From contig NC_012623.1 of the NCBI RefSeq assembly GCF_000022485.1, positions 2,666,674 through 2,730,673 on the forward strand: a stretch of 64,000 nucleotides of DNA. The letters run 5' to 3'. Of this stretch, positions 49,714-52,764 are shown one piece after another. The position numbers and the translations under genes are program-made. The first letter of the stretch is position 1. Each line of letters opens with the position of its first letter. The notes under the pieces were generated by a model, which was not told the DNA's origin, made no database searches, and worked only from the letters and a program-made list of their open reading frames with translations. The DNA comes from Sulfolobus islandicus Y.N.15.51. GTDB lineage: Archaea > Thermoproteota > Thermoprotei_A > Sulfolobales > Sulfolobaceae.

Positions 49714-49784
49714 CTTTCTTCTCACTCTAATGAGTGGAATTTGTTTTCTCTATATAATGATATTATATGAAGGAGTTTAGAAAC

Positions 49785-49794
49785 CTTATAAACC
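49785..49794 (+). promoter_or_regulatory. TATA box of the RHH-like gene pair
   Basis: CTTATAAACC is centred 25 nt upstream of the GTG at 49814, which fits a leaderless message and supports that GTG as the start. Confidence 0.5.
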
Positions 49795-49813: not shown

Positions 49814-50878
49814 GTGTCAAGATCTTCCGATGTTAGACTAACGCCGATTAGCGAAAGTCTTAGGGAAAGAGCAGAGGCCATTATGAGGATGTATGGAATA
49901 AAGGATGAGAAAGATTTCTACTCTAACGCGCTTATGAGTGTCATGAATATGATGGAAAAGGATGAGTCTTTATTGGGAGTAGACCTCTGCTTTCTCGTCC
50001 CTTATATTCTGATTCACGAGAACTTCTCGTTTGTTCATTCTTCCTATATAGAGGATAAAGTTGATTTGCATTCCGATGACGAGATTACAAAATATCTAAT
50101 TAAAAAATATTTTAATTTCATAAATCCAATATATCTAAAACATCTTCTTGAGTATTTAATTCCATCCACATATACCCCGCTAGTAATTAGGAATGGGAAT
50201 AATTTAGTCTATAAAATCAGTTTAAATAATATAAATAAAAAGTTACGAGAATACGTAGAGAATTTTCTACAGAATATTGTTGCAGTATTAAACATAGGAA
50301 AGATAAATAGCTCAAAAGACAATCTAGAAATAATTTTACCATATCGGACTCTTATAGATTTTGCAAACCAAAATCATCATCTAGTGAGGGTTGAAAGCAG
50401 TGTGATCAGTAAGAGAAATCAAATAATAGCTAAATTCAATCTCAAAAATGATATTAAATCCGATAAATTCGTAAACGATTGGTCCCTATATCAAATACTC
50501 ACAATATATGATACTTTGTTCAAAAATAATTTACTTTTATATAACATATTGGATAGACTAAATGATATTTACACCTTGTTCTTAGAGCTGAGAAAGACAG
50601 GCCATATTTTATATCCTAATATAAAAGGAATCGAATATATTAATTATAGATTATTAGAGAAGGAAATAATCAACAAAAACCTTGACATTTTTGCCCTTCT
50701 TATGAGTCCTAAAATTAGAGTAATAAAGATAAATAGCCAAGAGCTAATTATTGCCGGCTTAGATGATTTTGATCAGAACCTCTCTAATTTTATAAGATAT
50801 ACTTTAAATGAAATAGAAATAGAAAAAGGTACTCATGGATACTTTAAAATAAGAACGAATGAGAGAATATTTTCATAA
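49814..50878 (+). CDS. ribbon-helix-helix-like protein, unknown (354 residues)
   Basis: A 354-residue protein with a GTG start. Its first ~50 residues read as a ribbon-helix-helix fold (VRLTPISESLRERAEAIMRMYGIKDEKDFYSNALMSVM), which binds DNA as a dimer. The rest is mixed alpha/beta without recognised motif, rich in Asn, Ile and Lys. It forms a pair with the next gene, which starts in the same style. Both converge on the CARF-like gene. Likely a transcription regulator; targets unknown. Confidence 0.5.
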   Translation: MSRSSDVRLTPISESLRERAEAIMRMYGIKDEKDFYSNALMSVMNMMEKDESLLGVDLCFLVPYILIHENFSFVHSSYIEDKVDLHSDDEITKYLIKKYFNFINPIYLKHLLEYLIPSTYTPLVIRNGNNLVYKISLNNINKKLREYVENFLQNIVAVLNIGKINSSKDNLEIILPYRTLIDFANQNHHLVRVESSVISKRNQIIAKFNLKNDIKSDKFVNDWSLYQILTIYDTLFKNNLLLYNILDRLNDIYTLFLELRKTGHILYPNIKGIEYINYRLLEKEIINKNLDIFALLMSPKIRVIKINSQELIIAGLDDFDQNLSNFIRYTLNEIEIEKGTHGYFKIRTNERIFS

Positions 50879-50923
50879 CTGATATGCAAAACCCATAATT
50901 ACTTTATCCCACCAATTAAACAT

Positions 50924-51505
50924 ATGGCATTACAATCTCGACCTTGGAGGATTAGAAGCGATATTTGGGAGAAATTGGATGAGATTTGCATAAAACTAGA
51001 TAATAAGAAATCATATAATTGTACAGATAAGATAATACAGAGCGCGTCTGAACTTATAATGGAAGATATCGATATAACTGATATTAGTATCAGAAATTCG
51101 ATACTTGGAATTAAATATCTCATTTCATCTAATGTGTTCTATAATCTTATCTCAAATATACAAGACGAAAAAATATACAAAGAAATAGCGAATTCGTTAT
51201 TGTCAACAATAACTAATAAAGTGCAAGAGACATTTTTACTGTATTTAGAGAACTTTGAAAATAATTGCAAAGAGAGGTCTATTTTAGAGAACGTTATAAG
51301 AGGACTAACGTATATTCTAGGAGAGAACATAAAATTAGTTGCAGATGGAAAAACAAGATTTGAGATAATTAATGCATCAACTAACCCAAATATAATCAAC
51401 TTCCTTCGCATAATAACGGAAATTCTCGATGAGAACTTTCAAATAATTGAAATGGATCATAGCTGTAAAAATGATAGGATTTGCATAAAGCTAGATTTCT
51501 GTTAA
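50924..51505 (+). CDS. ribbon-helix-helix-like protein, unknown (193 residues)
   Basis: A 193-residue protein whose N-terminus (RPWRIRSDIWEKLDEICIKLDNKKSYNCTDKIIQSASELI) again fits a ribbon-helix-helix. A C-terminal domain with an alpha/beta feel (KTRFEIINASTNPNIINFLRIITEIL) ends in the Cys pair of SCKNDRIC. Its last bases overlap the stop of the convergent CARF-like gene by four bases. Both this and the preceding protein look like small DNA-binding regulators; the RHH assignment is by eye. Confidence 0.5.
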   Translation: MALQSRPWRIRSDIWEKLDEICIKLDNKKSYNCTDKIIQSASELIMEDIDITDISIRNSILGIKYLISSNVFYNLISNIQDEKIYKEIANSLLSTITNKVQETFLLYLENFENNCKERSILENVIRGLTYILGENIKLVADGKTRFEIINASTNPNIINFLRIITEILDENFQIIEMDHSCKNDRICIKLDFC

Positions 51506-52764
51506 TCACCCATCAATTCCTTCACTTTGCTTAACACACTATCTTCACATTGTTCAGAGTAATATATGTAAATCTTATCTCTATCTATCTTTATAATAGT
51601 CGCGTTAGGATCTAGACCAATACCAGTTAGCTCGATGTTATCACATTCACCCTTGTATCCACTTAATATATTACCAATACTTTCCTCTTTTCGTATAATC
51701 TCAGCTAGAGGCTGTTTTACTAAGTTAAATATCTGTCCTAAGCTATACTCGGCTTCTTTTAATTCTAAATGCTTTATAAGATAGTTCAACTCTATCATTA
51801 CTTCGTCTATAATCTGATTGGAAATTCTTCTACATGTTGGAGAAGTTAAATTTAGAATATTTCTCAAATTATCAATGCTAAAAGGCTTTTCAACTTTATA
51901 CTTCTTTACTAAATGCGTAGCAAGGACATAGTAAGTTGCGCCTTCTAATAATTCAACGTTCTCTATTAATTTACTATCTCTTATTTCCAAGTTATTCATA
52001 ACTATGTCTATAATTTTCTCTTCGCTTAATAGCTTCTCTAGGTCTATTCTATTCAGAATATGAAGCATTACTAGAGGATAACAATTTTCTATACAAAAAC
52101 CAATTCTCCTAAATTCAGCTCTTCCTACAGGCTGAGGTAAATTAGTTTGCTTTTCGGACTTCATTATCTTCATTTCTCTTAAGAAGTATTCAGATAGTTT
52201 AATACTATATATATCCTTAAGCACATGACTAATTAATTGTATAGAATAGCCCTTTTTAGCTACTTTCGCATAGATATAGTCTTGAACTTGTTGTGTGAGA
52301 AGTGAATCAATTATCGCTATTTCTAACGCCGCTAAAACTACTGTAGAAAAGGAAGAAGTAGAATGTGATACATCTAAAAGTATTAAACTAGGTAAGAAAT
52401 TCTTTAGAACATCATGTATTTTCAGATAAGAGAAGAATAGAGAAGTGCCAAAACTTACTGAGTCCTCAAAAGGTATTACTTCAACTGTGATATCGTCACC
52501 GAATTTTAAGGTTTCTAAAATATTACTATCTAATTCATTATAATTATTGAATTTAATATTAAATCTTGTTTTTATCTCAGTTGGAACAAGAGTTAAAATT
52601 TTAACTTCATGTCTTTCTTCTTCTAGAAACTTCTTTTCAGCTAAAAAAGTATACTTAGAGCTAATTCCCACTGGTGAATTTGTCCAATTTGTAACTTCTA
52701 TAGGTTTAATTTCACTTTCTTCTTCCGATACCTCAGTTAATGGGGCAATTATTAGTATTTTCAC
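51502..52764 (-). CDS. orphan CARF/Csx1-like protein
   Basis: A 420-residue protein. The first ~150 residues look like a CARF ligand-binding domain: MKILIIAPLTEV (the P-L after the first strand), a middle VKILTLVP, and ILLDVSHSTSSFSTVVLAALEIA (about residues 131-154), matching the D-x-[TS]-H-[GS] turn of Csx1/Csm6 proteins that bind cyclic oligoadenylate. The ~230-residue C-terminal part is helical, but I find no intact R-x4-6-H HEPN RNase motif. No cas gene or CRISPR array is in the window. GTG start with a TATA-like GAATTTAATAA about 26 nt upstream. Confidence 0.5.
   Translation of the reverse strand: MKILIIAPLTEVSEEESEIKPIEVTNWTNSPVGISSKYTFLAEKKFLEEERHEVKILTLVPTEIKTRFNIKFNNYNELDSNILETLKFGDDITVEVIPFEDSVSFGTSLFFSYLKIHDVLKNFLPSLILLDVSHSTSSFSTVVLAALEIAIIDSLLTQQVQDYIYAKVAKKGYSIQLISHVLKDIYSIKLSEYFLREMKIMKSEKQTNLPQPVGRAEFRRIGFCIENCYPLVMLHILNRIDLEKLLSEEKIIDIVMNNLEIRDSKLIENVELLEGATYYVLATHLVKKYKVEKPFSIDNLRNILNLTSPTCRRISNQIIDEVMIELNYLIKHLELKEAEYSLGQIFNLVKQPLAEIIRKEESIGNILSGYKGECDNIELTGIGLDPNATIIKIDRDKIYIYYSEQCEDSVLSKVKELMGD

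Follow-up and report, generated by a model that had tools for sequence, protein, structure and literature searches.

The 420-residue protein encoded on the minus strand of this stretch of Sulfolobus islandicus, an archaeon of hot habitats, belongs, with about as much certainty as sequence allows, to the catalogued CARF9 family, of which it is an orphan chromosomal representative. CARF9 is a lineage sister to Csx1, a type III effector, and its alignment with Csx1 establishes that the HEPN RNase motif has been lost. We favor, with moderate confidence, the view that CARF9 is an RNase-dead binder of a nucleotide signal and that the two genes beside it, labeled RHH1 and RHH2 here, form a separate module.

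The locus and its surroundings

The window, meaning the whole 64-kb stretch that was analyzed, comes from a genome of 2.85 Mb on two contigs. Three open reading frames (354 and 193 aa on the plus strand, 420 aa on the minus strand) were confirmed where an earlier note on this DNA had placed them:

49814-50878, plus strand: RHH1, 354 aa, GTG start; family not found, internal duplication
50924-51505, plus strand: RHH2, 193 aa; partner of RHH1, family not found
51502-52764, minus strand: CARF9-family CARF-HEPN protein, 420 aa, GTG start; Csx1-like, HEPN site eroded

RHH1 and RHH2 are co-directional and both are convergent with CARF9; the earlier description of convergent genes therefore holds for the pair against CARF9 and not for the pair's two members with each other. 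The 3′ ends of RHH2 and CARF9 overlap by four bases (TTAA, 51502-51505), as had been noticed, and the same overlap is present in three other genomes of the genus (G006, G002, and G004), while the two genes are separated by a 9-nt gap in G005 and a 42-nt gap in G003. The trio sits between genes that we take to encode a TreT-like glycosyltransferase and a UbiB-type kinase. By inference, the kinase would fit Sso2605 (PMC5682000). The remark that CRISPR neighbors are missing was accurate for the window, where no CRISPR array was found within the 64 kb and close direct repeats of at least 22 nt amount to a single imperfect pair near 14.6 kb. Type III genes of this genome (G000) are far from CARF9, with a cas10 match at ~800 kb and the nearest RAMP-family match at ~550 kb.

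Identity of CARF9 and kinship with Csx1

Assignment to the family rests on a full-length match to the PADLOC profile PDLC01954, CARF9--CARF_HEPN (E 8.2e-257, 850 bits, residues 1-420 against profile positions 1-416 of 416); a second full-length PADLOC match is to PDLC01957 (E 3.6e-37). Pfam and NCBIfam gave no meaningful match for the protein, and a PDB search with the single CARF9 sequence gave none. A profile of 13 CARF9 sequences, when compared with the PDB, matched two solved Csx1 proteins: 2i71 at E 8e-9, in a match that extends, weakly, to the end of the HEPN region, and 4eog at E 1.3e-5. The CARF call that the earlier note had made by eye, and the relationship to Csx1 that it proposed, are both upheld by these matches, which together with an alignment to type III Csx1 delimit one further feature:

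52165-52764, minus strand: N-terminal CARF region, approximately residues 1-200 (boundary approximate), from the match to the CARF regions of 2i71 and 4eog and the Csx1 alignment

Judged by sequence, CARF9 thus has the CARF domain expected of a Csx1. It shares the same two-region layout and can be aligned with Csx1 as far as the HEPN end. Weak matches of its profile extend to type III Csx1 genes, including one that lies ~5 kb from where cas10 was matched in this genome. CARF9 forms a single clade (support 100/99) beside Csx1 when 31 proteins are placed in one tree. An AlphaFold2 model of CARF9 built from a three-row alignment was too poor for use (pLDDT 38).

Among ~200 genomes of the class that were searched, strong CARF9 matches were limited to one family (f1), and weaker matches were to other CARF proteins. 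A related-locus search found one locus in genome contigs and no relative in viral contigs, and tblastn of plasmids with CARF9 gave nothing convincing. Literature searches on CARF9 and on inactive CARF-HEPN proteins returned nothing usable; Makarova 2020 (NAR gkaa635) is the CARF classification.

Loss of the HEPN motif and change of the ligand turn

The R-x4-6-H motif was the ground for predicting that CARF-HEPN proteins linked to CRISPR are active RNases; standalone CARF-nuclease genes have already been noted, and a non-catalytic binding role was suggested for HEPN domains without the conserved polar residues (PMC3710099). The PADLOC label likewise implies a HEPN RNase, whereas the window protein has no R-x4-6-H in its C-terminal 100 residues by motif scan, in agreement with the earlier note. 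Two altered sites stand out when 19 CARF9 sequences are aligned with 14 Csx1 comparators:

52360-52374, minus strand: DVSHS, residues 131-135, where Csx1 has the D-x-T-H-G turn (alignment)
51616-51645, minus strand: eroded HEPN motif region, residues 374-383 (CDNIELTGIG), where Csx1 has R-x4-H (alignment and motif scan)

The first of these had been read correctly from the letters. R-x4-6-H is present, as R-x4-H near the end, in 12 of the 14 Csx1 sequences, one of the other two being a truncated short frame, and the turn D-x-[TS]-H-G in 13 of 14; none of the 19 CARF9 proteins has the turn, and 18 of them, the window protein included, lack the Arg at the HEPN motif position. The window protein thus differs from Csx1 in lacking both motifs, in lying outside a CRISPR locus and in belonging to a separate clade. 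The exception among CARF9 proteins is that of G011, which alone has R-x4-6-H at the motif position (RNFSAH) and has a near-canonical ligand turn, DTTNG. G016 has a chance R-x4-H (RKRRCH) away from the motif position. SHAG is kept in eleven CARF9 proteins besides that of G011, accompanied by Asp, Glu or a shifted Arg, and the motif His is gone as well in five CARF9 proteins of this genus and in those of G007 and G016.

RNase activity has likely been lost along with the motif, a judgement on catalysis that rests on the missing motif. Because the G011 protein branches, at moderate support (91/91), from within the CARF9 clade, at least three losses of the HEPN site are suggested within CARF9, a count that assumes G011 kept the ancestral state and that is weakened by a long G011 branch of unsure placement. 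The residues P98, P125, D131, Y279, C374, G383, Y402, and C406 are invariant in CARF9. Two of them, C374 and C406, flank the HEPN hairpin, and such paired Cys are found also in many Csx1 proteins; a disulfide or a metal site is possible.

Co-occurrence and selection

RHH1 was found in 7/7 genomes of the genus and in three genomes of genus g3. Every carrier has RHH2 directly 3′ of it, and in G008 and G017 the two genes share 4 nt. In the seven genomes of the genus the pair always adjoins CARF9 or its remains. In two of them the pair is intact beside a broken CARF9: in G004 the gene is split by stops or frame changes, and in G001 only ~440 bases are left between RHH2 and the UbiB gene, where a C-terminal remnant was matched and, on our reading, the N-terminal end is also recognizable, which points to an internal deletion. 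CARF9 adjoins none of the three g3 pairs, and seven further genera carry CARF9 but not the pair. Its neighbors in other genera are ordinary genes, namely aconitase/DUF402, HerA/NurA or molybdopterin-enzyme genes. Its frames are open and full-length in nearly all carriers, across nine genera. No positive link between the presence of CARF9 and that of Cas10 was seen among the genomes compared, and G010 has CARF9 while Cas10 and RAMP matches are absent from it.

Since the pair and CARF9 each occur alone, and since the pair outlives a decayed CARF9, comparison of the genomes indicates that the trio is not a conserved unit and that RHH1-RHH2 is a separate module. The earlier proposal of a three-gene regulatory or defense unit is not supported by this comparison; joint conservation of the trio, which had been named as a check on it, holds inside the genus (7/7 adjacent, two with CARF9 broken) and fails outside it. 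The adjacency would date from the ancestor of the genus or before, with neither part requiring the other, and could reflect a genus-specific link. A lone g3 CARF9 (L015 and L060) lies on contig C113 of G024, a genome that is 71% complete; it groups tightly with CARF9 of genus g4 and has the same NurA neighbor, so the contig is probably a contaminant from g4.

dN/dS, taken as a Nei-Gojobori count, is 0.13 (G000-G002) and 0.16 (G000-G005) for CARF9, with dS near saturation past the closest genomes, and 0.59 for the closest pair, G000-G006, where there are very few changes. Elsewhere it is 0.06-0.35 for RHH1 and RHH2 and 0.03-0.08 for TreT and UbiB. The values of 0.13-0.16 demonstrate purifying selection on intact CARF9 copies, which are maintained yet evolve fast.

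The RHH1-RHH2 pair

Searches of Pfam, NCBIfam, PADLOC and PHROGs placed neither RHH1 nor RHH2 in a family. By eye, both start with a strand-helix-helix pattern like that of RHH_1 (PF01402), but hhalign comparison with nine of this genome's RHH proteins gave probabilities of 4% and 18%, compared with 16% for an unrelated control, the CARF N-terminus. The likeness exceeds that of column shuffles and not that of the unrelated control, and the RHH label therefore stays a guess. The similar beginnings that the earlier note saw in the two proteins are not supported, the profile comparison giving a probability of 1.9-2.6%. Within RHH1, residues 1-60 match residues 185-245 (hhalign score 32.1, probability 89%), and none of 150 column shuffles scored as high (mean 8.5, sd 1.6); the N-terminal module is therefore internally duplicated:

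49814-49993, plus strand: RHH1 repeat A, residues 1-60, RHH-like by eye only (hhalign to residues 185-245)
50366-50548, plus strand: RHH1 repeat B, residues 185-245 (hhalign to repeat A)

An AlphaFold2 model of RHH2 from a single sequence was too poor for use (pLDDT 44) and lends no support to the alpha/beta domains that the earlier note placed at the ends of both proteins. A tblastn search of phages with RHH1 and RHH2 gave nothing convincing; one RHH1 match, of E 0.09, was disregarded. A toxin-antitoxin reading of the pair was dropped, as the two genes stand alone in g3. In G005 a decayed, partial second copy resembling RHH2 (L069, G005:C1:2697365-2697685) has five stops (E 4.7e-5).

The region 5′ of RHH1 is well conserved in the genus, whereas that of CARF9 is poorly conserved, and the upstream alignments of the genus genomes revealed no element common to the two promoters. 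Archaeal promoters in general, together with the alignment, guided one assignment:

49785-49792, plus strand: TATA box CTTATAAA, ~26 nt before the RHH1 GTG (upstream alignment, seven genus genomes)

The RHH1 transcript is probably leaderless. The TATA box is spanned in this genome by a direct repeat of 9 nt (TTAGAAACC/TTATAAACC, window positions 49777-49794).

Function of CARF9

In the reading that we favor, CARF9 would form a CARF dimer that binds a messenger of the cyclic-oligoadenylate type and would soak up, slowly cleave or relay it instead of shredding RNA. Our confidence is moderate because we infer the buffering, cleaving or relaying role. The motif loss fits the RNase-dead binders suggested for other HEPN domains. 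The altered D-x-T-H-G turn means that the signal may not be cA4, or that binding may have been lost. A functional analogy is possible with the Crn1 ring nucleases (e.g., sso1393; CARF clade 7, PMC8699464), which are CARF proteins without a working RNase, although CARF9, unlike them, retains a HEPN-derived C-terminal region. A wider version, in which CARF9 descends from a Csx1-like ancestor, has lost its HEPN site repeatedly, serves RNase-independent signaling by cyclic oligoadenylate or another nucleotide outside CRISPR throughout the Sulfolobaceae and is coupled to the pair in this genus, would be a long shot.

Were RHH1 and RHH2 DNA-binding regulators of a signal-sensing CARF9, the three genes would mount a defense response in the genus. 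Their adjacency in all seven genomes and the four-base 3′ overlap kept in four would agree with this, as would the faster evolution of all three genes relative to flanking TreT and UbiB, accessory defense genes being often fast-evolving. We consider such a unit unlikely, given the g3 pairs that have no CARF9, the seven other genera in which CARF9 lacks the pair, pairs that stay intact where CARF9 is broken or internally deleted, the absence of a visible shared promoter element beside a poorly conserved CARF9 upstream region, and the unconfirmed RHH identity. Alternatively, CARF9 might dimerize with an active type III Csx1 present in the cell and lower the RNase activity of the latter, since two subunits make up the HEPN site; a Csx1 whose motif is intact (RNLIAH) is encoded near cas10 in this genome, and CARF9 has retained its two-region layout despite the motif loss. 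However, CARF9 and Csx1 are very divergent and lie in separate clades, which makes mixed dimers improbable, and G010 has CARF9 with no type III system detected; we give this explanation little weight.

The remaining alternatives deny either the loss of catalysis or a present role. CARF9 could still be an RNase through a rearranged HEPN site, using for example a His near residue 284 (17/19 members) or the His of SHAG (SHAG or AHAG in 12/19), and HEPN families with displaced residues have been described (PMC3710099). With the motif-position Arg missing in 18/19 and both motif residues gone in this genus, retained cleavage seems very unlikely. Equally doubtful is a decaying relic without a present role: the pseudogene in G004, the large internal deletion in G001 and the motif erosion are what a relic would leave, but dN/dS of 0.13-0.16 between intact copies, and full-length frames with invariant residues in nearly all carriers of nine genera, argue for maintenance.

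If CARF9 does bind cyclic oligoadenylate without cutting RNA, it would be a widespread chromosomal buffer or relay for a CRISPR alarm signal, and one carried even by G010, where no type III system was detected. The G011 protein, with its near-canonical motifs, would be a natural counterpart for studying how RNase function disappeared; its locus (L018, G011:C1:191181-192428) combines DTTNG and RNFSAH, unlike all other CARF9 genes examined.
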